Below, one piece after another: positions 42,288 to 54,641 of a stretch of 64,000 nt of DNA. The stretch comes from Lachnospiraceae bacterium (lineage in GTDB: Bacteria > Bacillota > Clostridia > Lachnospirales > Lachnospiraceae). Location: assembly GCA_015056945.1 (NCBI GenBank), contig SVFH01000002.1, positions 1 through 64,000 on the forward strand, read 5' to 3'. The stretch's first letter is position 1. Every line of letters begins with the position of its first letter. Below the pieces are notes generated by a model. It saw nothing but the letters and a program-made list of their open reading frames with translations, made no database searches and had not been told where the DNA came from. The position numbers were made by a program, and so were the translations under genes.

Positions 42288-42412
42288 TTAGAACAGAGAG
42301 TCCGCTTGCGGACTCTCGCGCCTGGCGCGGTTGCGTCAGCTTCATCTTCCTTGCGCGCGAGTGTGTATTTTTAGCGGAGCTTTTTTCTTGCATAAGACTA
42401 TGCAAGAAAAAA
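42288..42412. repeat. Dispersed three-hairpin element, copy C
   Basis: Hairpin 1 GAGTCCGC-TT-GCGGACTC perfect. The middle hairpin is altered (GTTGC/GCTTC, mismatched). CGCGCGAGTGTG and AGCGGAGC are present, and the closing hairpin has changed arms (CTTGCATA/TATGCAAG) that still pair and keep the T/A flanks. It lies between the LytTR start and the ATPase end. Confidence 0.85.
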
Positions 42413-42441
42413 CCCTACAGTCACATAAGACTGTAGGGTTT
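42410..42441 (-). terminator. Terminator of the P-type ATPase
   Basis: AAACCCTACAGTC pairs with GACTGTAGGGTTT (13 bp, loop ACATAA/complement) just after the ATPase stop at 42447; a T run continues on the minus strand through repeat copy C. Confidence 0.85.
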
Positions 42442-42446
42442 AAACT

Positions 42447-45080
42447 TTATTTACTCTGCGGCTTAATCAAACCAACCAGTTTGCAGAATTCCATAACGAT
42501 GGTAGGAACAACAACAAGTCCTAACGCAATCAGGTAAAGCTTTAAAGGTAAAATCACTAGACCGAAAGCAATTCGCAACGGTGTGAACAATACCAGCGCA
42601 ACAAGGATTGCGGATACGAAAACAGCGCCATTTAACTTGCCGTTGCTAAACGGTCCGATTTTGAAGAGTGAACGATCGGAACGCATGTTGTACGCCTGCA
42701 ATACCTGTGAGAATGCGAGTACGATGAATGCCATTGTCTGGCCATATGCCAATGTTTCCTCGCCTGCGGGCGCGAATTTCTCTCCGAGATAGAAACCAAC
42801 AAGTGTCAGTGCTGCAAACATAGCACCCATTAATACGACACGGATACCGAGACCGTTTGCAAAAATACCTTCGTTCTTCGGCTTGGGTCTATGATCCATA
42901 ACGTCCTTCTCTACCGGTTCCATACCAAGCGCAATTGCAGGAAGAGAATCTGTTACAAGGTTAATCCAAAGCAACTGCATGGAAAGAAGCGGAGTTTTAT
43001 GCCAGAGAAGCATTGCACAGAATACCGTGATAACTTCACCGATATTGGTTCCAAGCAGGAATCCTACTACCTTTTTAATGTTTGCGTAAATTCCTCTACC
43101 TTCTTTTACCGCATCTACGATGGTTGCAAAATTATCATCTGTCAGGGTCATATCTGCAGCACCTTTCGCTACATCAGTACCGGTAATACCCATTGCACAA
43201 CCGATATCTGCCGCCTTCAATGCAGGCGCATCATTTACACCGTCACCGGTCATGGACACAACCTGATCTTTACGCTGCCATGCTTTCACAATACGGATTT
43301 TATTCTCCGGTGAAACACGTGCGTAAACAGATATTTTCTCTACCTGTGCATCCAGTTCACTGTCTGTCATTGCATCAAGCTGGGAACCTGTAATTGCAAG
43401 GTCTCCCTCTTCTAAAATACCTAATTCTTTAGCGATTGCGGATGCGGTAACAACATGGTCACCGGTAATCATGACGGGCTTAATACCTGCCTGACGACAA
43501 ACCGTAACAGCATCTTTGGCTTCCTCTCTGGGCGGGTCAATCATACCTACAAGACCCATGAAAGTAAGTCCGTTCTCTAACTCTGCCGAAGTCGGATTTT
43601 CGGGAATTGTTGTAATTTCTTTATATGCAATAGCGAGTACACGCAATGCATTCTCACTCATGGCTTCCGTTAATTCTTTGGCTTTTTCCATATTGCCTTT
43701 CACACAACGGGTTGCCATCATGTCGTACGCACCTTTGACGATAACGATATTTTTACCATCAATATTATTTACAACAGACATTAACTTTCTGTCAGAATCA
43801 AACGGAATCTCGGCAAGTCTGGGATACTTCTCATTTAATGCATCCTTGGTCATGCCTTTTTTATGTGCAGCATAAACAATAGAGGTTTCTGTCGGGTCAC
43901 CAATGTGCTGCTCTTCGCCGTTCTCATGGAACACAACGGAGCCGTCGCAGCAAAGGGTACCGTATAACAATAACTTCTTAATATCTTCGCCGTTTTCATC
44001 GGAAATCTTTTCTGTATCAGCCATACCGTCCACATATGCATGCACAAGTGTCATACGGTTCTGTGTTAAAGTACCTGTTTTATCCGAGCAGATAATGGAA
44101 GCACTTCCGAGCGTTTCCACGGCAGGAAGCTTACGGATCAATGCATTCTTCTTAACCATACGCTGTACACCGATGGAAAGTACGATGGTTACAATTGCGG
44201 GAAGACCTTCAGGAATCGCGGAAACCGCAAGGGATACGGAGGTCATAAAAATTTCAAGTACCGGAATATCATTCACAAGACCTACCACAAAAATGATCGC
44301 GCAGGCTGCAAGTGCCATGATACCAAGATATTTACCAAGCTGCGCAAGCTTATGCTGAAGCGGAGTCTGGCTGTCACCTTCCTCATCAAGGAGATTCGCA
44401 ATTTTACCCATTTCGGTATCCATACCGGTTGCGGTTACAACTGCAGTTGCAGTACCGTACGTAATGGAACAGCCTGAATATACCATATTATGACGGTCGC
44501 CAAGAGGTGCACCTTCTTTCACTTCTGCAAGATAATCCTTCTCAGAAGGCACGGACTCACCGGTCAATGCAGATTCCTCTGATTTCAAACCTGCACTAAG
44601 CAAAAGCTTCGCATCCGCAGGAACAAAATCTCCCGCTTCCATACGAATAATATCACCGGGAACAAGGTCTGCCGCATCAATTACCTTCTCCTCGCCGTCA
44701 CGGATGACTCTCGCATGCGGAGCAGACATATTCTTTAAAGCATCCAAAGCCTTCTCTGCCTTGCCCTCCTGATAAACACCCATGATGGCATTTAAAATAA
44801 CAATTAATAAAATAAGCGCGGGTTCAAAAAGCTCACCCCAGTTCTGTTCCAGGATAACAACCACAAATGAAACAATTGCAGCTGCAATCAGGATTAAAAT
44901 CATCGCGTCCTTAAACTGATCCAGGAAACGCTGAAGTGTTGTTTTCTTCTTCTTTTCACGCAGCTTATTAGCTCCGTATTTGCTTTGACGTGAAGTAACT
45001 TCTTCGGATGTAAGACCGATTTGCTTATCCGTCGCAAGCTCTTTCAAAAGTTCTTCATTATTTTGACTGTAGGGTACCAA
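42447..45080 (-). CDS. Calcium-type P-type ATPase
   Basis: About 877 residues of the P2A (SERCA/PMR1-like) class, exporting Ca2+ or related cations. Seen in order: cation-ATPase N domain (~10-70), TGES in ALTGESVPSEKD, the transmembrane AVSAIPEGLPAIVTIV, phosphorylation site CSDKTGTLTQNRM, KGAYDMMATRC in the nucleotide domain, TGDGVNDAPALK, then four to six C-terminal helices. Start: a TTG at 45080 sits eight bases after GGAGG; the ATG at 45128 lacks a ribosome site. VSAIPEGLPA with downstream NIGEV and NLVTDSLPA fits a single-site Ca2+/Mn2+ pump. It stands alone, with a strong terminator. Confidence 0.92.
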   Translation of the reverse strand: MVPYSQNNEELLKELATDKQIGLTSEEVTSRQSKYGANKLREKKKKTTLQRFLDQFKDAMILILIAAAIVSFVVVILEQNWGELFEPALILLIVILNAIMGVYQEGKAEKALDALKNMSAPHARVIRDGEEKVIDAADLVPGDIIRMEAGDFVPADAKLLLSAGLKSEESALTGESVPSEKDYLAEVKEGAPLGDRHNMVYSGCSITYGTATAVVTATGMDTEMGKIANLLDEEGDSQTPLQHKLAQLGKYLGIMALAACAIIFVVGLVNDIPVLEIFMTSVSLAVSAIPEGLPAIVTIVLSIGVQRMVKKNALIRKLPAVETLGSASIICSDKTGTLTQNRMTLVHAYVDGMADTEKISDENGEDIKKLLLYGTLCCDGSVVFHENGEEQHIGDPTETSIVYAAHKKGMTKDALNEKYPRLAEIPFDSDRKLMSVVNNIDGKNIVIVKGAYDMMATRCVKGNMEKAKELTEAMSENALRVLAIAYKEITTIPENPTSAELENGLTFMGLVGMIDPPREEAKDAVTVCRQAGIKPVMITGDHVVTASAIAKELGILEEGDLAITGSQLDAMTDSELDAQVEKISVYARVSPENKIRIVKAWQRKDQVVSMTGDGVNDAPALKAADIGCAMGITGTDVAKGAADMTLTDDNFATIVDAVKEGRGIYANIKKVVGFLLGTNIGEVITVFCAMLLWHKTPLLSMQLLWINLVTDSLPAIALGMEPVEKDVMDHRPKPKNEGIFANGLGIRVVLMGAMFAALTLVGFYLGEKFAPAGEETLAYGQTMAFIVLAFSQVLQAYNMRSDRSLFKIGPFSNGKLNGAVFVSAILVALVLFTPLRIAFGLVILPLKLYLIALGLVVVPTIVMEFCKLVGLIKPQSK

Positions 45081-45386
45081 AAGTATTTCCTCCTTTAAAA
45101 ACTTATCAACTACCAAATCACACGTCACTTGACGATTTTGACACAGTTACATTCAAAAATATAATCGAAACCAGCCAAAAAGTAAATATAAATATAGAAA
45201 AAATAGATAACCTTATTTCGTATTATTTGCTAATAATCCTTCTTTAAAACATAAAAAATGCCGATTAATACATATTTCACATTTCTGCTACAGATAAAAT
45301 ATAAGGTTAGGGATACCGCAATACACCTGTTGTATGCCTGAATATCTGAAATAACTTATTGGGAAATGTTGTGAATCAAAAAACTC

Positions 45387-45415
45387 TTGACAGTTATTGT
45401 TAATTGGATTATATT
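45387..45415 (+). promoter_or_regulatory. Promoter of the 45457 gene
   Basis: TTGACA (45387-45392), 17 bases, TATATT (45410-45415). The rest of the 45081-45456 gap is AT-rich and shows no other gene or clear repeat. Confidence 0.65.
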
Positions 45416-45456
45416 ATTGATATATTATTATTAATTTGAGAAGAAGAGGTTATGAA

Positions 45457-45819
45457 ATGTATATCAATAGATTAATCAGCCGACTGCAGGGAATCGGCGG
45501 TGCGCTCAGTGGCGCACTCATTGGAATGCTTAGTATTATTATCTTTTTTGAATTAGGCGTATTATCAGCTTGCTCGGGCTTCATACTAGCCATCAGTACA
45601 TACTATGGCTATGCTCTTTTTGCTCGCGAACAGAGTAAAATGGGAATCTCTTTTTGCCTTCTTTTAAATTTAGTCACTCCCATTCCGGCTATATTACTAC
45701 TCCACTCTTTCAGCCGGTCGGGAATGGATGTCATGATTCTCAAAATGATGGGAATTTATTGCTTCGCCATCTTAGGCTCTGTCGCGGCCCGGGCAAAAAG
45801 CATCGCCTCACTGAATTAA
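45457..45819 (+). CDS. Small hydrophobic membrane protein, unknown
   Basis: 120 residues from the ATG at 45457 (AGAGG seven bases upstream). Roughly four hydrophobic helices, Gly-rich start (LQGIGGALSGALIGML). Not recognised. It has its own promoter and is followed directly by tRNA-derived debris. Confidence 0.6.
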   Translation: MYINRLISRLQGIGGALSGALIGMLSIIIFFELGVLSACSGFILAISTYYGYALFAREQSKMGISFCLLLNLVTPIPAILLLHSFSRSGMDVMILKMMGIYCFAILGSVAARAKSIASLN

Positions 45820-45834
45820 ATCCGCTCCGGTCGG

Positions 45835-46125
45835 TGCTAAACGGGCGTCCGCTTCTATTGAGGTCGCAGGTTTCATTTCTATAACTTAAATATAGACAGG
45901 ATTTGAACCTGCGGTCTACGCTCCGCTCCGGTCGGCTCAAAACCGAGGTCCACCGGACCTCGTGCGGTCTACGCTCCGCTCCGGTCGGTGCTATACGAAC
46001 GTCCCCCGGACGTTCAGCACCCTCTGCGCCCGAACGAGCGCTCACTCCTATTGAGGTCGCAGGTTCAACTTCTATAAACAACACTGATACAAAAATCGAT
46101 GCGACAGGATGTTGAATAAATTTGC
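45835..46125. repeat. tRNA-derived fragments in both orientations
   Basis: Pieces resembling the 3' half of the tRNA at 46231 occur several times: GACAGGATTTGAACCTGCG (45896-45914, same orientation as the tRNA), GAGGTCGCAGGTT (45859 and 46053, opposite orientation) and CGATGCGACAGGATG (46098-46112). Between them, GGTCTACGCTCCGCTCCGG is present twice and CTCCGCTCCGGTCGG or close variants three times. No fragment can fold as a full tRNA. This explains the gene-free stretch 45820-46230. Confidence 0.65.
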
Positions 46126-46188
46126 CTTCGGCAAATTGCGACTCTGCGGCCTTATCGTCGAGCAGGTTCAAATTTTGGAGCAATAAGT

Positions 46189-46229
46189 GAAAAAGAAAGT
46201 CCCACCCAAAGGGTGGAACTTTCTTTTTC
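46189..46229. terminator. Terminator after tRNA-Pro
   Basis: GAAAAAGAAAGT-CCCACCC pairs with GGGTGG-ACTTTCTTTTTC around an AAA loop, giving a near-perfect stem with T and A flanks; on the minus strand it follows the tRNA by a few bases. Confidence 0.8.
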
Positions 46230-46230
46230 A

Positions 46231-46304
46231 TCGATGCGACAGGATTTGAACCTGCGACCTCTGCGTCCCGAACGCAGCGCTCTACCAAGCTGAGCCACGC
46301 ATCG
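46231..46304 (-). tRNA. tRNA-Pro, anticodon CGG
   Basis: 74 bases including discriminator A. The acceptor stem is CGATGCG/CGCATCG, the D arm has AGCTTGGTA, the anticodon stem CTGCG/CGCAG holds the loop TTCGGGA (anticodon CGG, codon CCG), and the T arm contains GGTTCAAATCC. No encoded CCA. Confidence 0.95.
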
Positions 46305-46375
46305 TTATTTATGAGGCCAAATAAAGTGACCATTGATTATGATAGCGCATTTTGGCTCTGTTGTCAAATCATTTC

Positions 46376-46555
46376 TTATAAATTTTTCTTATCATGGCAG
46401 GTTCCCTGCATTGCGCAATTCGTACAGCTACAGCCACAGGAAGATTTGCCGTTTCTTTTATCTCTTATCAGTTTCACGATAATGGCAATCACCAGAACCG
46501 CCAAAATAATGGAAACAATAATAGATGCCGCATTTGCGGCAAGCCAGTTTAACAT
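46376..46555 (-). CDS. FeoB-associated Cys-rich membrane protein
   Basis: 59 residues: MLNWLAANAASII, one membrane helix (~11-28), a basic stretch (KLIRDKRNGK) and a Cys cluster SSCGCSCTNCAMQGTC (five to six Cys). This is the layout of the FeoB-associated Cys-rich family thought to help Fe(II) uptake. No feoB is in the window. The ATG lies inside the end of the dus gene (7-base overlap) with AGGAG seven bases upstream. Confidence 0.88.
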   Translation of the reverse strand: MLNWLAANAASIIVSIILAVLVIAIIVKLIRDKRNGKSSCGCSCTNCAMQGTCHDKKNL

Positions 46556-47526
46556 TGAAATACTCCTTTGATTTCCTTCAAATCATGTGTGAAAACCTCA
46601 CGGACAGCTTCTTTATAAGCCTCCGGTTTCGAGGATTTTTGCACTGCACGGATTGCTTTATCAGCATCTGCGAAATTTCTGCCAAGATAGAACCACAGCT
46701 CTTTCATTTTATAGAAGACATCTTTCTCGGCACCTAAGTCGGCAAGATACCCTTCATATAAGGCATCGTGGTAAGTGCGAAGCTCTTCCTTGCGAATTTT
46801 GGTGCCTGTTTTTATCTCACGCACCAGTCCCGGATTGGCAACCACACCACGCCCGAGCATCACGCGGGAAAGCTTGGGGAAACGCTCTTTTAAGAATCGA
46901 TAATCCTCTACATTCCAGATATCCCCGTTGTAGCAAACCGGCGCTTTACAGCTTTCCATTGCCTCTTCAAACACATCAAGATGCGGAATTCCGTTATAGA
47001 ATTCGCTCCGGACACGCGGGTGAATGATAACCTCCTGCAACGGAAAAGAATTGTATATTTCTAAGATATGCTTAAATTCCGATATATCTTCCATTCCGAG
47101 TCTGGTTTTCACGGAAACGCGAAATTGTTCATTCGCAGACAGCGCATCATTTGCCGCAAAAAAATCCGAAAGAAACTGCTCCAGACGTTCCGGATCCGCA
47201 AGCAATCCGCTTCCTTTCCCTTTGGTGACTACGGTTGCCGCCGGACACCCTAAATTAATGTTCACTTCCTGATATCCGCGCTGTGCTAAAAAGCGACAGG
47301 TTTCCATCATCTGTCCGGCATCATTGGTAAGAATCTGCGGCACCAGATGAATGCCGACATTATGTTCCGGCGCAACGTCTTTACGCTCCCTTGTTTTCAG
47401 AATCTTTTTTTGCGTCGGCGTAATAAACGGCGCAAAGTAAGTATCCACCTCTCCGAACATAGACTCATATACATTTCGATACACAAAGCCCGTCACGGCC
47501 TCCATCGGCGCAAGATAAAACTGCAT
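46549..47526 (-). CDS. tRNA-dihydrouridine synthase
   Basis: 325 residues. FMN-dependent TIM-barrel reductase of tRNA uridines. Seen: LAPMEAVTGFVYRN at the start, NINLGCPAATVVTKGKGSGLL with the catalytic Cys, SVKTRLGM, IHPRVRSEFYNG, CYNGDIWNVEDYRF and MLGRGVVANPGLVREI. The C-terminal helical domain runs from ~240. It is the gene into which the Cys-rich protein gene is nested at the end. Confidence 0.93.
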   Translation of the reverse strand: MQFYLAPMEAVTGFVYRNVYESMFGEVDTYFAPFITPTQKKILKTRERKDVAPEHNVGIHLVPQILTNDAGQMMETCRFLAQRGYQEVNINLGCPAATVVTKGKGSGLLADPERLEQFLSDFFAANDALSANEQFRVSVKTRLGMEDISEFKHILEIYNSFPLQEVIIHPRVRSEFYNGIPHLDVFEEAMESCKAPVCYNGDIWNVEDYRFLKERFPKLSRVMLGRGVVANPGLVREIKTGTKIRKEELRTYHDALYEGYLADLGAEKDVFYKMKELWFYLGRNFADADKAIRAVQKSSKPEAYKEAVREVFTHDLKEIKGVFQC

Positions 47527-47581
47527 CCTTTTTCTCCTTTTTCCTGCCTGACGGCACTTTTATTTCGCTTTTACTATTTAC

Positions 47582-48532
47582 TCAGACCTTCTCTTCATAC
47601 GTCCGCAGGAAAACTTCCTTCTGTATAATGTAGAGGTCTGTCATATCATCGCAACGGATTGCCATATAATCACCCGGATTCCCGACAAAGTAATCCAACG
47701 AATCCTTACGTAAAATCTTTGTACGTCGGTCAAGCGCACGTGCCAGAATACCGTTTCCGGGTTTCGGATAACAAATATGCGCCAGCTCATCTATCGGACA
47801 ATACTCTCCGCTTTCCGTCAGCTCTACGGCCGGCATGAAATCGAAAAACGTGGAGAAAATGTCCAGCTTTTCATCACTTTCCTGATAAGAAGCATGGAAT
47901 TTGCTTCCCGCAATCTCATATACCTCGCCAAGACACCCAATCATAATATACAAATTATCATCCGAAGCGAAGCATACACCATCTTCACTTTCCAGCGACT
48001 TAATGCAAAGCGCCGTTCCGACAGGAGCAATGTCCGTTGTTCTCACATAAGCCCATCTTACCGCTTTTTTTTGATAGCAGGGAATGGTTCTTACAAGCGT
48101 CTCATGTCCGGCAACATACGAGGCAGATTCCACAATTTCCGTCTCAGTATAATAAGCAATCGCACGGCGCATAAAATAGGAGGCACAGGAATCATCTTCA
48201 TAATCCTCTAACTGTACCTGTAAAAGAACCGACGGCATTTTACCGACTGCTAACTCGCGGTCTCCCTTCATAACGCCATAACTTCCGAACAGAAAGTCCA
48301 TGAATTCTATCGCCTTAATCTGCGGTGTGTTGCTGAAACAATATATCTCTGTTCCGTCCACAACCTCACGGATATACAAAAGAATTTCCGCATCGGAATT
48401 CTGCAGGTGGGAACGATATAAGCCGGTATCCGGATTATCCGGTGAAAAACCGATTACAACCAGAATCGGTTGTGTTGCACAACGATACCACGCACCTTCT
48501 AAAGGTCCGTCGTAGCACAAAAACTCCTTCAT
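47582..48532 (-). CDS. Unknown soluble protein
   Basis: 316 residues, not recognised. No signal, no membrane helix, mixed alpha/beta, rather acidic. It repeats short phrases such as CYDG/CYPKPGNG, but no catalytic pattern stands out. GGGGAG lies before the ATG. It follows the cyclase by 81 bases on the same strand and may belong to that signalling group. Confidence 0.55.
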   Translation of the reverse strand: MKEFLCYDGPLEGAWYRCATQPILVVIGFSPDNPDTGLYRSHLQNSDAEILLYIREVVDGTEIYCFSNTPQIKAIEFMDFLFGSYGVMKGDRELAVGKMPSVLLQVQLEDYEDDSCASYFMRRAIAYYTETEIVESASYVAGHETLVRTIPCYQKKAVRWAYVRTTDIAPVGTALCIKSLESEDGVCFASDDNLYIMIGCLGEVYEIAGSKFHASYQESDEKLDIFSTFFDFMPAVELTESGEYCPIDELAHICYPKPGNGILARALDRRTKILRKDSLDYFVGNPGDYMAIRCDDMTDLYIIQKEVFLRTYEEKV

Positions 48533-48613
48533 CTCCCCACCTCCTTTCAGCTTTGAACAAATGCATCCTCATACTTTTATCCCTAAATATCCCATGTCCC
48601 TCCCTCGGACCAA

Positions 48614-50074
48614 TCAGAGATATTCCATAAAATGCTCTGAAATATATGTAAAACAGATTTCAACCTGCTCATCAGAGTAGGTTATTATTTTACCATAAGC
48701 ATTCGAATCACGCAAAACAATTTCAACATCCATATGCGCGGAAAGCGGTTGTTTGCTTTCTGCGAGTAAACGTAAAAGAATGGTGGTATTGTTATAACAT
48801 ACAATTTCTGCCTTGGCAGCAAGCTCCACCGTACATTTTTCACGCATCAGGTATAATAAAACCTGCGTTTCCGCCGATTCCGGCACCTGCATTTCACCGG
48901 GTTTGGGCCGGTACAGCGTCAGTTCATAATCGCCGGACATTCCTACCACGGAACAAATCGGGATTTTAACCTTAATCCCTTTCATGGATATATAAAAGGT
49001 GTCCTCCGACTCTATTTCATTGGCAATATCCGTCAGGGTCTGCTTGGAAACAAGCACCTGCCCGCCCAAACTGAAATTTTCTATACGGGAACACAGATTT
49101 ACAGCCTGTCCGATTACATTATATCGCATCATATATTCCGAACCGATATTCCCGATAAAAACTTCTCCCTTATGAATACCGATTCCCATACTGATTTCAG
49201 GATACCCTTTTTGACAGTTTTCGCTGTTCACCTTTACCATGGCATTCTGCATACTGATTGCTGCTGCAATCGCCTGTTTTTCCGAGTGCAATGTTTCAAT
49301 CGGCGCACCAAATACCGCAAGAATCGCATCACCGATAAACTCAATGACCGTTCCCTGATAAGCGGTAATAATCTTCGTCATTTCCTCCAGAAAACGATCA
49401 AGAATATCCACAACCATCTCTGCACTCAAACGGTCAGACAGAGAAGTAAATCCTCGCAAATCCGCCAATAAAACCGTCACGGTACGCTTTTCTCCGCCAA
49501 GGGTTGCACCTTCCGGCCTGTCCAGAATCACTTCTACGACTTCTTCCGGAAAATACTTCCCGAAAATATGATATAAAAAATCATTGCGCACCTTGAGTTT
49601 TTCATTTAAGAGGCGAATTTCTTTTGCGGCTTTTAATTCCATGGACTGTTGCAAAACCATCTTTTCGTAACTTCTTGCCATTTCATGCTGCTCAGCCATT
49701 TTCTCAATTCGCACAAGAGAATTGTCCGAAAAAGGATAACGCAAAATACCGGATGCGCCGAGACCGTAACAGATGCTGTCTTTTTCTCTCGTCTTTTCAT
49801 CCGTTATATAAAAAACGGGCACGGTTGCCAGTGCCCTATTTTTTTGTAGCAATCGCATACACGAAAAATCATGTTCTGCATCGGTATTATATTCAATTAA
49901 AATCAAGGAAGGTGCTTCATGTCCGGCTTGCATGTCAAGTCGTCTTGCGCCCTCCTGCAGTGCCTCCTCGGAAAAGAAACAATACACTTTTAATGCACCG
50001 TTCTGATTCATCTGGCGCTGCGTTTCAATTAACACCGGCCTGCTGTTGCAGACAAGCCATACACTTCGTTTCAT
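48614..50074 (-). CDS. Receiver-like + class III nucleotidyl cyclase protein
   Basis: 486 residues from the ATG at 50074 (GGAGG upstream, five bases after the TIR gene stop). Residues 1-~125 resemble a response-regulator fold without the usual acidic pocket. ~130-165 is a coiled linker; ~195-375 is a class III cyclase domain. Metal Asp residues D205 (LLADLRGF) and D249 (FIGDAIL) and the transition-state pair N326/R330 are kept. The purine-choosing Lys of adenylate cyclases is E245 and the Asp/Thr is N319, so ATP is an unlikely substrate. The last ~100 residues are a beta-rich, PilZ-like domain (tentative). Confidence 0.85.
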   Translation of the reverse strand: MKRSVWLVCNSRPVLIETQRQMNQNGALKVYCFFSEEALQEGARRLDMQAGHEAPSLILIEYNTDAEHDFSCMRLLQKNRALATVPVFYITDEKTREKDSICYGLGASGILRYPFSDNSLVRIEKMAEQHEMARSYEKMVLQQSMELKAAKEIRLLNEKLKVRNDFLYHIFGKYFPEEVVEVILDRPEGATLGGEKRTVTVLLADLRGFTSLSDRLSAEMVVDILDRFLEEMTKIITAYQGTVIEFIGDAILAVFGAPIETLHSEKQAIAAAISMQNAMVKVNSENCQKGYPEISMGIGIHKGEVFIGNIGSEYMMRYNVIGQAVNLCSRIENFSLGGQVLVSKQTLTDIANEIESEDTFYISMKGIKVKIPICSVVGMSGDYELTLYRPKPGEMQVPESAETQVLLYLMREKCTVELAAKAEIVCYNNTTILLRLLAESKQPLSAHMDVEIVLRDSNAYGKIITYSDEQVEICFTYISEHFMEYL

Positions 50075-50078
50075 GCTC

Positions 50079-50951
50079 TCAGAATCCTCCCTGATGCTTT
50101 GGCGATGCCATACAATATCGGTTATTTCCGTCATTTTTACCGGGCTTAATCCCCTTTTCCTTGCAGGAATCACACAGACAACCGGTCCTGATTGCAATAC
50201 CGCACCCCTCACAAATCAGAAATACCTTTGATTTCGAAGGAATCTCGAAACGTTCATCACGTAAAAAATATTCTATCGTCTTACGCGGCACCCCTGTCAC
50301 ATCCGAAACCTGCGTAATAGTTCTCGGTCCCGCAATACTTAAATAATTACGGATGGTCTGATAAGAGTCATAGTGAATATTGCCGCATCTTACACATTGA
50401 TAAGTTCCGCGATAAATTTCCTCTAAGCCGCTGCCGCAACGTTCACACTCTACCGGTACCTGATTCGGTAAAAGTGTATTGGACCTTCTGATGCCGTCCT
50501 TATTCTCCTCCAATTGCTGATTATAATACGGATCAATCTTTGGCATCTTTTCAGCAGCCACGATTTCACGTATTCTACGTACCAGCATAAAAAGGGAATC
50601 TTTCGATTCCTCCCAGTACGGAAGGAGCTGAACGTTATTTAAATAAAAGTGGAACGTCTCATTTAACGGTGTAGGAGTAAGCTGCACGGGAATAATAATT
50701 TTGCGATGGTTAATCGCACAATCCAATTCTTTCTCCACCCACATAGACTCTTGTGAATGTCTGGATAACAGCAGCAAAAAGATACTGCATGACTGAATCG
50801 CTTTCGGAATTTCTCTCGCATAATTACTTCCGGGCGGAATCATCTCAGGCGCTTTAAAGTATGTCAGCTTCTCCTCCTCCAGAAATTTAATTATATCTGC
50901 TACATCCGAGTAATCTTTCGAACTATAACTGACAAAAATTAAATTCTTCAT
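50079..50951 (-). CDS. TIR domain protein with YvyF-like zinc-ribbon/HTH tail
   Basis: 290 residues. TIR domain ~1-132: FVSYSSKD, the PPG loop, SRHSQESMWVEKEL with W71 and the likely NADase Glu (E75). Then CERC/CVRC (C169, C172, C186, C189), a helix-turn-helix-like stretch (~196-236, TITQVSDVTGVPRKTIEYFL) and a second Cys set (C247, C250, C258, C260, C263). The order zinc ribbon-HTH-zinc ribbon matches the YvyF flagellar family (TIGR03826). Directly upstream of the cyclase, same transcript. It may sense a nucleotide and act on NAD or DNA; function unproven. Confidence 0.88.
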   Translation of the reverse strand: MKNLIFVSYSSKDYSDVADIIKFLEEEKLTYFKAPEMIPPGSNYAREIPKAIQSCSIFLLLLSRHSQESMWVEKELDCAINHRKIIIPVQLTPTPLNETFHFYLNNVQLLPYWEESKDSLFMLVRRIREIVAAEKMPKIDPYYNQQLEENKDGIRRSNTLLPNQVPVECERCGSGLEEIYRGTYQCVRCGNIHYDSYQTIRNYLSIAGPRTITQVSDVTGVPRKTIEYFLRDERFEIPSKSKVFLICEGCGIAIRTGCLCDSCKEKGIKPGKNDGNNRYCMASPKHQGGF

Positions 50952-50982
50952 CCCAACTCTCCTTTTACACTATATCTATCCC

Positions 50983-51029
50983 ATGAAAGATTACAACCGG
51001 CCGCAAAACGGCCGGTTGTAATCTTTCAT
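50983..51029 (-). promoter_or_regulatory. Perfect 21-bp hairpin in the TIR leader
   Basis: ATGAAAGATTACAACCGGCC plus one G (50983-51003) pairs perfectly with 51009-51029 around a CAAAA loop. No T run follows on either strand, so it is not a standard terminator. It lies between the riboswitch-like element and the TIR start and could be an expression platform or RNA-processing site. Confidence 0.6.
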
Positions 51030-51064
51030 ACATGCTTTCTTCTGCAAAAAGCATACTTTAGAAT

Positions 51065-51135
51065 GCAACTGGCTGGCGTATCTTTAAGATTTAGCCCCTT
51101 TAGCTTTGCGACACTGTCTTTCGGCAGCTGTGCCC
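51065..51135 (-). promoter_or_regulatory. Possible c-di-GMP-I (GEMM)-like riboswitch
   Basis: The minus strand reads GGGCACAGCTGCCGAAAGAC, then AGTGTCGCAAAGC, GGGGCTAAA, and GATACGCCAGCCAGTTGC. GCACAG, the GAAA-capped stem, CGCAAAGC, GGNCTAA and the closing GCC..GTTGC follow the order of GEMM-I aptamers. The usual GGCAAACC segment is missing, so this may be a variant or a chance resemblance. It lies 110 bases upstream of the TIR gene. Confidence 0.5.
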
Positions 51136-51204
51136 AATATGTATTTCACTACATGTAACTAAGCTTCCCTAATCCGACACTGTTCCTATATGGATTGCAA
51201 TGGC

Positions 51205-51918
51205 TTAATGAAATCTTGCCTCTGCAATAGATTCAATATTTGCTGCCATATCACGGTTCAATGCCGACTGTTTGTCAATCTCTTTGTTGATAGACTCAAT
51301 ATCCTCTGTTACAACAGCAATCTGCGCAAATACTTCTTTGAGCATCTGCTGTGAATCCTGTACACCCTGATTACCGTTCTCCAAAGTCTGTGTTGCCTTT
51401 TCCATCGCTTTCTCGAGATCTTCAATCTCTGCCATAAGCTCATCAACATATTTCACAACATCATCTGCAGATGCGGTTGTGTTTGCGGAAAGATTCTTAA
51501 TCTGATTTGCAACCACTGCAAAGCTTCTTCCTGCTTCACCCGCTCTGGCTGCTTCGATGGAAGCATTTAAGGCAAGCAAACCGCTTTTCTTTGCAATGTG
51601 CTTTACCATATCAATGATTTCGCTGATTTTTTCTGCTTTCTCACGGAACACGGAAATCTGTTCATTTACCTTTCCGATTTGTTCCACACAACGCGCTACG
51701 GCTACACCACTATCTTCCATCGCGGCCATTCCTTTGTCGGAAGATAACTTTGCGGTACGTGTACTGTCCTGAATATGACCAACCGCATTTTGCACATTTC
51801 GGATTGCAGACCCCATCTCCTGATTCGGCACACGTAACTGTTTTACCTCAGCAAGCTTAATCTCTAACCTCTTATCAATATCACCTTTTGACGCGTTTCC
51901 ATTCTCATATAAAGCCAT
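51205..51918 (-). CDS. Soluble chemoreceptor signalling domain
   Basis: 237 residues, mostly coiled coil. The hairpin tip [21 protein letters not shown] and [15 protein letters not shown] match methyl-accepting chemotaxis proteins. There is no membrane helix and no sensor domain; the start is polar ([17 protein letters not shown]). It could be a cytoplasmic receptor or decoy. No cheA or cheW in the window. GGAGG upstream. Confidence 0.85.
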
Positions 51919-52178
51919 ATTTCTGCCCTCCTGCTTCCATGATGAATTTCTTAAGAGCGCTCCTTTTTACCCGGAACAAATCTTTTATATCCATCATCTT
52001 TTTACGCCATTATCAATTTTAGAGGATAATGCGCTATTCTTGCAAAAATGATAGCATATTTTTAGAAAAAATGGAACCTTTTAATTAAATTTTCTGTTAT
52101 TTTGTGATAATTTTGTATAGTTTGCACAATATTATCTCTTTATTTCTTCAAAGAGAAAAAGAAAAGTGTTATTTTTTC
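51919..52178. other. Intergenic, no feature seen
   Basis: AT-rich stretch between the chemoreceptor-like gene and the lipoprotein gene. It must hold the chemoreceptor promoter, but no box is clear enough to call. Confidence 0.4.
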
Positions 52179-53486
52179 CTACATGAACCACAAAATCTCA
52201 TTGTCAACACGGATTTGCATCCATACGAAGCCCTCATTCTCAACTTCTTCAAAAAAATCTGCCTTCCATGTTTTATTACTAAATTTCAGTTCTACCGAAT
52301 GATTCTCCACATACTTCCATGTGAATTCTTCCTCGGTTCCGTACATATCAATTGTTCCGGTTCCGTCATCAAAAAATTCGATTACAACATAATCATTCTC
52401 TTCTCCCGTGAAAAACGCAAGCTTTCCGGTCGTGGCATTCTGTCTGAAATTGGCATCCCAATAGGTACCCTCTAATCCGTACTCTTCCGGAAAAACAAGA
52501 TTGAAATTCTCAGGACTCAAATCCATGAAACCTTCATCACCTTCATACTCATTCTCGAAATCTTCATCATACTCAGGGTCGTACTCAGGGTCCGGATAGT
52601 TTTCAATATCTTCACTAAAGACGCACGCTTCATCAGCATACATGGTGTCTGAGAACATCACGCCTTCTGTCTCTTTCTGACCAAACGTACAACTGTAAAA
52701 TTCAACCCATGAATTCTCTCCATCATCATAGTACGGAATACCAAGAGAGCCGGTCAGTGTACAGTCTGAGAAAATAAAACCTCCTTCTGCCTCGGAAATA
52801 TTGAATGCTCCATAGCTACAGTCACGTAAAACAGTATACGTAATCATAAAATCTCCGGAACCCTCTTTAGCGCTGATACCGTAAACACCGCATCCGTACA
52901 AATCCATTGTATCAAGATAGACTTCATGACAGGATATAAAGTTTAGAACATCTCCCATGCAATCGCCCTGCTGCGTATGCCCGATTGTCATATTGGATAA
53001 ATTAATATTATTACAATTCACAAACTTCAGGCAATCCGCATAGCGTGGTTCAACTACAATTTCCGTATCTGCATATTGATCCGTTGCACCGGTAATCATT
53101 AATCCTTCTACATCCTGAATCACAAGCTGTGCTCCGTCTTCGCACTCCTCAATCTGTACATATTCATGTTCAGCATTAAAGCCTTCGCGGTCCTGCTCCC
53201 AGATTTCTTCAATATACTCTGTCAGATTCATATAGGAGGCATCTACTATAATCTCTGTTTCAGGTGCAATCGCTTCCACAAATTCTTCTGCCGTGGTAAC
53301 AACAATGCCTTCTTCTGTCTCCAACTCTTCTTCATCGTCCGAATCAAATGCCTCAATCTCTTCCGAAATTTCAATATCGGAATCCTCATCTTTCTCCTTC
53401 TTTAACCCGAAACATCCTGTCGCCGTCGACATTATCAATGTTGCAACCAAAGACAATCCTAACAGCTGATACAATTTCTTTTTCAT
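52179..53486 (-). CDS. Beta-helix lipoprotein, unknown
   Basis: 435 residues from the ATG at 53486 (GGGAG upstream). Lipoprotein signal MKKKLYQLLGLSLVATLIM with lipobox TATGC, an acidic linker (DSDDEEELETEE), then a right-handed parallel beta-helix (~110-250; repeats such as LKFVNCNNINLSNMTIG, VLRDCSYGAFNISEAEGGFIF). An acidic spacer (PDPEYDPEYDEDFENEYEGD) leads to a C-terminal beta domain. No pectinase catalytic pattern is evident; a cell-surface binding role is possible. Confidence 0.8.
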   Translation of the reverse strand: MKKKLYQLLGLSLVATLIMSTATGCFGLKKEKDEDSDIEISEEIEAFDSDDEEELETEEGIVVTTAEEFVEAIAPETEIIVDASYMNLTEYIEEIWEQDREGFNAEHEYVQIEECEDGAQLVIQDVEGLMITGATDQYADTEIVVEPRYADCLKFVNCNNINLSNMTIGHTQQGDCMGDVLNFISCHEVYLDTMDLYGCGVYGISAKEGSGDFMITYTVLRDCSYGAFNISEAEGGFIFSDCTLTGSLGIPYYDDGENSWVEFYSCTFGQKETEGVMFSDTMYADEACVFSEDIENYPDPEYDPEYDEDFENEYEGDEGFMDLSPENFNLVFPEEYGLEGTYWDANFRQNATTGKLAFFTGEENDYVVIEFFDDGTGTIDMYGTEEEFTWKYVENHSVELKFSNKTWKADFFEEVENEGFVWMQIRVDNEILWFM

Positions 53487-53613
53487 TTGACTCCCTCTTT
53501 CATACAAAAAATTTTAGCAGATCAAAACCTACTTTCATAGTATCTCACATTCACCTTCACTTGTCACTATTTTTCTCGCGCAGGAATCACAGTACCTGCT
53601 TTCAAGACACAAT

Positions 53614-53641
53614 AAAAGCAGGTACCGGAGTACCTGCTTTT
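53614..53641. terminator. Perfect 12-bp hairpin terminator
   Basis: AAAAGCAGGTAC-CGGA-GTACCTGCTTTT. It ends the FliD-like gene (stop at 53655) on the minus strand. Confidence 0.85.
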
Positions 53642-53654
53642 ATGAAAGTTACTG

Positions 53655-54380
53655 TTAAATTTCTGCGTCGACCTTGGTGGCTTCACGGTCTGCCAACACA
53701 TTGGAATACGTTCCTTTGCTGTTATATGTTCCGGCAACACGCGCTGCCGCGCTGCCGATTGCGCCGGCCTTAGATGCCACTTTGTCCGCAAACGAGCCGT
53801 AACCGGAAAAGATTGTTTTTAACGTGATGATATTTGCCTTCTTTAAAGCATCCTCATCCAGACTTAACTTGTTATCATTGCCAATGGAAATTCCTACGCC
53901 TGACAGAAGCCTTTCCATTGTATCAGTCATGCCCGTCATCCACGCCGCATTTTTCAATACATCCTTGGTATCGGAATCGCCTGCCATAGAAATTACTGCA
54001 TTATAATCAGTTACAAACGTTTTTACCGCTTTGGTAATTGCTTCCCAATCATAATCTTCCTTCTCTGTTTCCATGCCGGTAGCCTCATCCTTTGTTACCG
54101 TCTTTTTCTTTTCCCAAAGAGAAGCACTGCCAAGGACTGCTGCCGATTGTTTCAATGAATCTGCTGCCGCCTTCATCTGGGAAGACTTCTTTGTTGCATC
54201 CTCACCTGCTACAGTATCATTCTCTTCCTGTTTGGCATAATAAGCTTTCACAAGCTTCCCGTAGGAGCCGTTCTTAATCATCGCGTAATCGGTAAGATTG
54301 ATGCCGTCCGTGGCATTGGGAAACAAATAAGAATAATCTGTTTTTGTATTGTAGTTACCAAAAAAATTCATATCCGCCAT
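53655..54380 (-). CDS. FliD-C-terminus-like orphan protein
   Basis: 241 residues from the ATG at 54380 (GGGAGG upstream). The second half follows the C-terminal core of flagellar cap protein FliD: FVTDYNAVISMAGD, MTGMTDTMERLLSGVGISIG, NKLSLDEDALKKA and FSGYGSFADKVASKAG. The first ~85 residues are unrelated and start with NFFGNYNTKTDYSYLF. No flagellar genes are near. Common as a stand-alone protein in Lachnospiraceae; it may have a secreted structural role, or be a descendant of FliD. Confidence 0.8.
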   Translation of the reverse strand: MADMNFFGNYNTKTDYSYLFPNATDGINLTDYAMIKNGSYGKLVKAYYAKQEENDTVAGEDATKKSSQMKAAADSLKQSAAVLGSASLWEKKKTVTKDEATGMETEKEDYDWEAITKAVKTFVTDYNAVISMAGDSDTKDVLKNAAWMTGMTDTMERLLSGVGISIGNDNKLSLDEDALKKANIITLKTIFSGYGSFADKVASKAGAIGSAAARVAGTYNSKGTYSNVLADREATKVDAEI

Positions 54381-54482
54381 TGTAACACCTCCCATTGAAA
54401 TCCGTTTCAAAAAATGGCCGAACTTATCCTGTTACTATGTTTTTCGGCACTTTGCAGACAATACTTAAGTGCCGGCGGGAAC

Positions 54483-54641
54483 TTATGCTTCCTCGCTGAA
54501 AGATTCTTTTCCCACAGAGCATAAAGGACAAGCAAAATCCTCCGGTAAATCTTCAAACTTGGTTCCGGGAGCGATTCCCATGCTTTCATCTCCTACTTCT
54601 TCATCGTATACCCATCCGCATACATCACATACATACTTCAT
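54483..54641 (-). CDS. Rubredoxin
   Basis: 52 residues with two CxxC knuckles, YVCDVCGWVYDEE and FACPLCSVGKE, and the usual PGTKFEDLPEDF between them. Mononuclear iron electron carrier, used by anaerobes for oxygen or peroxide defence. AGGAGG is eight bases before the ATG. Confidence 0.96.
   Translation of the reverse strand: MKYVCDVCGWVYDEEVGDESMGIAPGTKFEDLPEDFACPLCSVGKESFSEEA

Follow-up and report, generated by a model that had tools for sequence, protein, structure and literature searches.

In the window, by which is meant the whole stretch of 64,000 nucleotides from a Lachnospiraceae bacterium that was analysed, three genes on the reverse strand form an operon that encodes a TIR-YvyF protein (gene 1), a receiver-like protein with a class III cyclase domain (gene 2) and a degenerate DHHA1 protein (gene 3) (Table 1). 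The stop of gene 1 is followed after 4 bases by the start of gene 2, gene 3 follows gene 2 after 81 bases, and 50952-51135 is leader and intergenic sequence. An earlier reading of this DNA, here called the original prediction, had ended the unit at 48614; gene 3 belongs to it and had been missed, and the receiver fold and the C-terminal beta-rich domain of the cyclase had also gone unmentioned. Read from the genome sequences, 11/11 loci from nine genera (genomes and loci carry G and L handles) have kept the TIR-YvyF gene, the pseudo-receiver cyclase gene and the DHHA1-derived gene in this order and on a single strand, separated by -41 to 81 nt, and the TIR and cyclase genes, for which the original prediction had proposed a co-occurrence check, are thus side by side in every one of them.

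When gene 1 was used as query, matches to both TIR domain and tail were found in 3/31 genus genomes (G000, which is the genome of the window, G009 and G018) and, in further contigs, at two loci, L033 (= G009) and L034 (= G044). With gene 3 as query, 67 of 397 family genomes had a match at 1e-6 and 9 had one with E < 1e-60, these 9 being the genomes with the short or fused form, and a TIR alignment query of the same 397 genomes gave TIR plus tail matches in the same 9. These 9 family carriers together with G009 and G018 make up the 11 loci. Among 368 order genomes no carrier was found outside the family, the only TIR plus tail matches being those of G000 and G217, both in-family; the genome profile searches scored at most six candidates per genome and misses are possible. 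Four weaker gene 3 matches were in short frames, each of which extends to the end of its contig; the GGGH motif is still present in two, and no TIR-YvyF or cyclase frame adjoined any of the four in the stretches examined. Pairwise identities at the 11 loci were 36-59% for the TIR protein, 38-66% for the cyclase and 34-57% for gene 3, and the distance matrices of genes 2 and 3 were correlated with an r of 0.907, a value that was reached in 0/2000 permutations.

Gene 1 matched Pfam TIR_2 (E 9.2e-18, 65 bits) more strongly than PF08937, the ThsB-type TIR, which was matched at 24.3 bits with a cut-off of 21.2. The intact W/Glu motif of the original prediction is borne out, W71 and E75 being invariant in 11/11 relatives, and E75 aligns with the WxxxE of TIR-1/SARM1, the glutamate of which we take to be catalytic. 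Because this site is invariant at identities as low as 36%, it suggests that catalysis has been kept. The tail matched the flagellar-region family YvyF (TIGR03826) over residues 168-266, that is, over 99 residues, at 59 bits (E 4.4e-16), which is below the curated cut-off of 124.15, and no TIGR03826 match in the 397 family genomes exceeds that cut-off either. It resembles YvyF in its layout of zinc ribbon, helix-turn-helix (HTH) and zinc ribbon, as had been predicted, and differs from it in that low score and in being fused to a TIR domain. The cysteines C169, C172, C186 and C189 of the first zinc ribbon are invariant in 11/11, and the second ribbon is present in 8/11, that of the window included, and lost in 3/11, so that the layout is complete in eight loci. 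For the HTH between the ribbons there was a MerR-type match, but a weak one (E 0.072). Besides gene 1, the genome of the window has a YvyF-like gene that stands alone.

Gene 2 matched PF00211 (E 2e-28), and the metal residues Asp205 and Asp249 and the transition-state residues N326 and R330 are invariant in 11/11, in agreement with what the original prediction had said of them. At the selectivity site Glu245 stands in place of the ATP-selecting Lys in 11/11. In a PDB search the best two of 51 sequences were the Cya2 chimera 6fht and Cya2 itself (2w01, E 3.5e-43), and Cya2, with 39% identity, is the closest solved relative. Cya2 is described as a guanylyl cyclase whose E488K variant is an adenylyl cyclase, in the account given in PMC5995499. 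Because Cya2 is the closest solved relative and Glu occupies the selectivity site in all 11 relatives, the cyclase is probably of the guanylyl type, which sharpens the earlier claim of a non-canonical specificity. The N-terminal fold of gene 2 is that of a receiver (REC) in which the acceptor site is Glu in the window and Asp in the other 10 and the acidic pair is eroded, and it is a pseudo-receiver. The C-terminal domain was modelled by AlphaFold2 as six strands and one helix, with ten-residue means of the predicted local distance difference test (pLDDT) of 63-84. A PilZ identity for this domain, which had been prompted by the strand order only, was rejected; there was no Pfam match and none among the 50 VIA matches listed reaches the domain.

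Gene 3 has no convincing family match, that to PF14083 (PGDYG) being weak (E 0.048), and a PDB search with its profile gave one chance-level match (E 0.33). Its relatedness to DHH-DHHA1 paralogues of about 510 amino acids was seen by BLAST. Like the DHH-DHHA1 phosphoesterases of the DhhP/GdpP kind it has a DHHA1-type fold, followed by a C-terminal part that is conserved with the C-terminal extension of the 510-residue paralogues. Unlike them it has neither the DHH domain nor the GGGH motif, and it differs from them also in its TIR partner and its cyclase. The DHH catalytic domain is absent from 10/10 short members, and Pfam DHH matched 6 of the 16 proteins scanned, which is the number of long members; GGGH is present in 6/6 DHH paralogues versus 0/10 short members, in which it is replaced. 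It is absent also from the copy in G044, where genes 2 and 3 are a single frame of 837 amino acids (L034/L074). To judge from these alignments, gene 3 is derived from a DHH-DHHA1 phosphoesterase that has lost its DHH domain and its GGGH motif; it is not expected to be an enzyme and is apparently inactive. The original prediction had offered the YvyF-like tail as a possible sensor; for the part that reads the nucleotide or has a regulatory role, gene 3 is as good a candidate or a better one.

Relatives of gene 3 that have kept the DHH domain were followed at 25 loci, namely the best-scoring 21 from the third-protein search of the family and 4 others, the gene being cut by a contig end in 4/25. 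In 13/25 (L047/L076, L048/L079, L049/L077, L050/L078, L052, L054/L116, L056, L058, L060, L061, L066, L067 and L119) the first gene downstream, in the same orientation, is a large TIR gene of a different kind, within 87 nt in 12 loci and at 420 nt in one. Two of these TIR proteins were scanned; they are of about 1040 amino acids and have TIR_2 and beta-propeller matches. The DHHA1-PGDYG module is therefore a recurrent partner of TIR proteins, and it meets them in two settings, with the phosphoesterase domain at these loci and without it in the cyclase operon. It is possible that the DHH-DHHA1-PGDYG and TIR-propeller genes make up a second, separate DHH/TIR system. The DHH-DHHA1 protein of the window's own genome (506 amino acids, with a PGDYG-like extension; L038 6997-8517, G000 contig 40) adjoins a copper-type P-ATPase that was named by eye.

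Table 1. Features of the operon and its surroundings in the window (positions of the window; all on the reverse strand)
Feature	Position	Strand	Basis or remark
Gene 1, TIR-YvyF protein, 290 aa	50079-50951	-	Pfam, TIGR03826; kept in 11 loci
TIR domain of gene 1, residues 5-95, with W71 and Glu75	50667-50939	-	Pfam match
YvyF-like zinc ribbon, HTH, zinc ribbon tail of gene 1, residues 168-266	50154-50450	-	TIGR03826
Gene 2, receiver-like / class III cyclase / C-terminal beta-domain protein, 486 aa	48614-50074	-	
REC fold of gene 2, pseudo-receiver, residues 1-130	49685-50074	-	
Class III cyclase catalytic domain of gene 2, residues 191-375	48950-49504	-	PF00211, Cya2 2w01, residues
C-terminal domain of gene 2, residues 400-486	48617-48877	-	AlphaFold2 model
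Gene 3, degenerate DHHA1 protein, 316 aa	47582-48532	-	Co-occurs in 11 loci
DHHA1-type fold of gene 3, residues 5-133, GGGH motif lost	48134-48520	-	
C-terminal part of gene 3, two PGDYG-like repeats, about residues 150-316	47585-48085	-	
Hairpin in gene 1 leader, 23-bp stem, 3-nt loop	50982-51030	-	
Short soluble MCP signalling domain, 237 aa, upstream neighbour outside the core	51205-51918	-	

The reading that we tentatively favour, at a likelihood which we put a little short of even, is that the operon is a chromosomal second-messenger module of three genes in flagellated Lachnospiraceae in which cGMP would gate the output of the TIR protein. The cyclase would make cGMP and be controlled by its pseudo-receiver and by local inputs, for example from a GAF-GGDEF protein, chemoreceptor or hybrid kinase. 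Gene 3 would serve as a subunit without catalytic activity, by binding nucleotide or by docking the partners. The fusion of genes 2 and 3 in one genome implies a direct contact of gene 3 with the cyclase, and the TIR neighbours of its relatives imply a link of gene 3 with the TIR protein. The nucleotide state of the complex would then control the assembly of the TIR protein, which would cleave NAD+ or make an NAD-derived signal, its zinc-HTH-zinc tail directing it to a partner or to nucleic acid. The output would probably be a switch in the behaviour of the flagellated cell, in motility or in a stress state, and this is the weakest step. A bolder form of this reading, which we regard as improbable, is a pathway from cGMP to TIR without a cyclic-nucleotide-binding domain (CNBD), in which the guanylyl cyclase and a phosphoesterase turned nucleotide sensor would jointly gate a TIR enzyme that carries a flagellar-type zinc-HTH module, with the DHHA1-PGDYG module partnering TIR-propeller proteins elsewhere in a form whose phosphoesterase is intact.

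Several observations weigh against the favoured reading. The degenerate GGGH motif means that nucleotide binding by gene 3 may have been lost, and in the other 12/25 DHH-type loci, the window's own genome included, no TIR neighbour was found in the stretches examined. The carrier loci were collected with gene 1 and gene 3 queries, and a free-standing copy of the cyclase may exist. The distance matrix of the TIR protein agrees less well with those of the cyclase and gene 3 than these do with each other, r being 0.39 for TIR and cyclase (31/2000 permutations as high) and 0.49 for TIR and gene 3 (4/2000). The presence of FlhA in 11/11 carriers versus 209/397 family genomes is in favour of the reading, but this link is weak, the hypergeometric probability for the 9 carriers in that sample being 0.003 with kinship ignored. 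The tail need not mean flagella either, because YvyF-like proteins occur away from flagellar genes: small ones were found with purine, pyrimidine and other genes as neighbours (identified by eye), among them a second class of 150-180 amino acids that adjoins purine genes in several genomes (L101, L103, L106, L107), and a flagellar function read from the tail alone is weakened accordingly. Finally, the patchy spread, 3/31 in the genus, would also fit a defence gene, and in G241 the TIR gene of the operon has a second TIR gene (TIR_2 and DUF6273, 472 amino acids; L075 1302-2720) about 1 kb upstream of it.

These last two points favour the explanation that the operon is a Pycsar-like anti-phage system, which we consider unlikely. 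Infection would trigger the cyclase, its nucleotide would act by way of gene 3 or the tail to switch on the TIR protein, and the cell would be stopped by depletion of NAD+. A TIR effector that adjoins a class III cyclase, as in PycC with PycTIR, is the logic of Pycsar as set out in PMC11224242, PADLOC PycC models match the cyclase at E values down to 2.8e-22, and the catalytic residues are intact. In its anatomy this explanation is no different from the favoured one. The operon differs from Pycsar, however, in that it has a zinc-HTH-zinc tail instead of a CNBD, a third, DHHA1-derived gene, a selectivity site that is of the guanylyl and not the pyrimidine type, and no defence context that we could find. 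No CNBD match was found at E up to 1 in the three window proteins, as the original prediction had noted, nor was there a PF10137 match in the window proteins. The residues of a cytidylate cyclase are absent as well, since the equivalents of F100, R142 and Q144 of EaPycC are L/M203, E245 and I/L247 in 11/11; the EaPycC positions were placed by their spacing from the metal Asp 102 and 146, and the comparison covers the cytidylate set only, the uridylate set (BcPycC Y50, D94, R97) not having been placed by alignment. Membership in Pycsar was rejected on the lack of a CNBD and of these residues.

The surroundings of the operon also speak against a Pycsar-like role. With PADLOC at 1e-20 none of 87 flanking proteins was clearly one of defence, and a defence island, for which the original prediction had proposed a check, was rejected as only scattered matches were obtained (mad3 in 2 members, DinG-type, WYL and three Mko models in 1 each). 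The flanking set is 87 of the 88 proteins listed (L068 11446-12000 was left out); the list itself covers frames of at least 100 aa and, in the window, those within about 42400-54500 other than 45436-45819 and 45740-46333. The model of ThsA, the partner in the Thoeris system, was not among the 6 PADLOC families matched by these proteins at 1e-20, weaker matches not having been looked at. There was no full-length copy in plasmid and phage collections, and the G+C fraction of the three genes, 0.42-0.45, is ordinary compared to 0.443 for the window (standard deviation 0.034 over 1-kb stretches). Directly upstream at several loci there are signalling genes. Of the proposal of an undescribed signalling or defence module, then, the defence half finds no support, whereas the signalling half holds because the pair is conserved in 11/11 and no description was found in the literature. 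No published account of a TIR, cyclase and DHHA1 operon was found, and since subscription papers were mostly outside the search this absence is unproven.

It has also to be considered that the TIR domain is a non-enzymatic adaptor and that the TIR-YvyF protein, once assembled by the cyclase complex, acts as a regulator that binds DNA or RNA, which we hold to be quite improbable. The HTH between the ribbons, weak as its MerR-type match is, and the several upstream neighbours that are signalling proteins would suit such a regulator, but the W/Glu site kept in 11/11 at 36-59% identity points to catalysis, and the second ribbon of the tail is missing in 3/11. More doubtful still is the explanation that the cyclase is an adenylyl cyclase or one of relaxed specificity and the module a cAMP system. 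It draws on the second selectivity residue, which is Asn319 in 11/11, an unusual residue where Cya2 has Gly and one that counts against the favoured reading too, and on the statement in PMC4215837 that single residues do not wholly fix cyclase specificity. Against it stand the Glu at the main site in 11/11 and Cya2 as the closest solved relative. In guanylyl cyclases the Glu goes with a variable second residue, for which the same source lists C, S, T, H, A and G, Asn not being in that list, and we treat Asn319 as non-defining for the guanylyl class, this position varying among known enzymes.

The local inputs in the reading that cGMP gates the TIR output take their cue from the genes directly upstream of the TIR gene. 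In 6/11 loci this is a GAF-GGDEF gene at a distance of 7-33 nt, with GGEEF intact in all 6. In the other five carriers the neighbours differ: the window has an MCP, G009 a potassium-type channel that follows an MCP with CZB, G229 a 7TM hybrid kinase, G154 an XRE-aminotransferase and G018 a gene that by eye is transporter-like. Full-length relatives of the GAF-GGDEF protein (50-58% identity) are present elsewhere in 4 of these other 5 carriers, and the gene was found in 4/4 same-genus genomes without the operon that were searched. Being linked in just 6/11 and present unlinked in carriers and in non-carriers, the GAF-GGDEF protein was rejected as an obligatory fourth part, and its loose linkage also counts against the favoured reading.

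Among described systems, the operon cyclase is like Synechocystis Cya2 in its Glu at the selectivity site and in having there its closest solved catalytic domain. Cya2 has a CHASE2 membrane sensor according to PMC5995499, whereas the operon cyclase has a pseudo-receiver and TIR and DHHA1 partners, with Asn and not Gly at the second site. It is also like XC_0250/XC_0249 of Xanthomonas, where PMC3770947 describes a cGMP-making class III cyclase linked to a GGDEF protein, as the GAF-GGDEF gene is here linked at six loci. The Xanthomonas GGDEF protein has a cNMP-binding domain in that description, whereas here there is a GAF domain and the link is not obligatory, and in the XC_0250/XC_0249 pathway as described in PMC3770947 the TIR protein and gene 3 have no counterpart. 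Having a TIR protein, a retired phosphoesterase and a cyclase of guanylyl type in one conserved operon, this would be a small and testable system, and it shows a route from hydrolase to regulatory subunit beside relatives in which the intact hydrolase still adjoins a TIR gene. If the bolder pathway is true, there would be a family of DHH/TIR circuits in these bacteria, which would tie TIR chemistry to ordinary cell behaviour and not to immunity alone.

Some minor observations were made around the operon and its relatives. The hairpin in the leader of gene 1 has a perfect stem (-47.9 kcal/mol, z -8.6), is without a T-run and is present as a single copy within the window. The longer counterpart of the window's MCP, at L033 5199-6629 (G009), has a CZB domain that the MCP of the window lacks. 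A TIM-barrel gene is in the flank of 5/11 loci, and a TIM-barrel-like gene, seen by eye, is near the unlinked GAF-GGDEF gene at 2/3 loci (L113 4266-6303 and L115 4087-7819, not L114). In G334, L100 4397-6029 has a GAF-GGDEF gene with a degenerate HDDEF and then, near the contig end, a zinc-HTH-zinc protein of 173 amino acids without TIR, which is the best-scoring tail-only match. In G018 a transposase-like frame, seen by eye, lies at L035 3-932, about 4.5 kb upstream of the operon. In the window a tRNA-Pro (cgg) is located at 46231-46304, beside a tRNA-dihydrouridine-synthase gene at 46549-47526.

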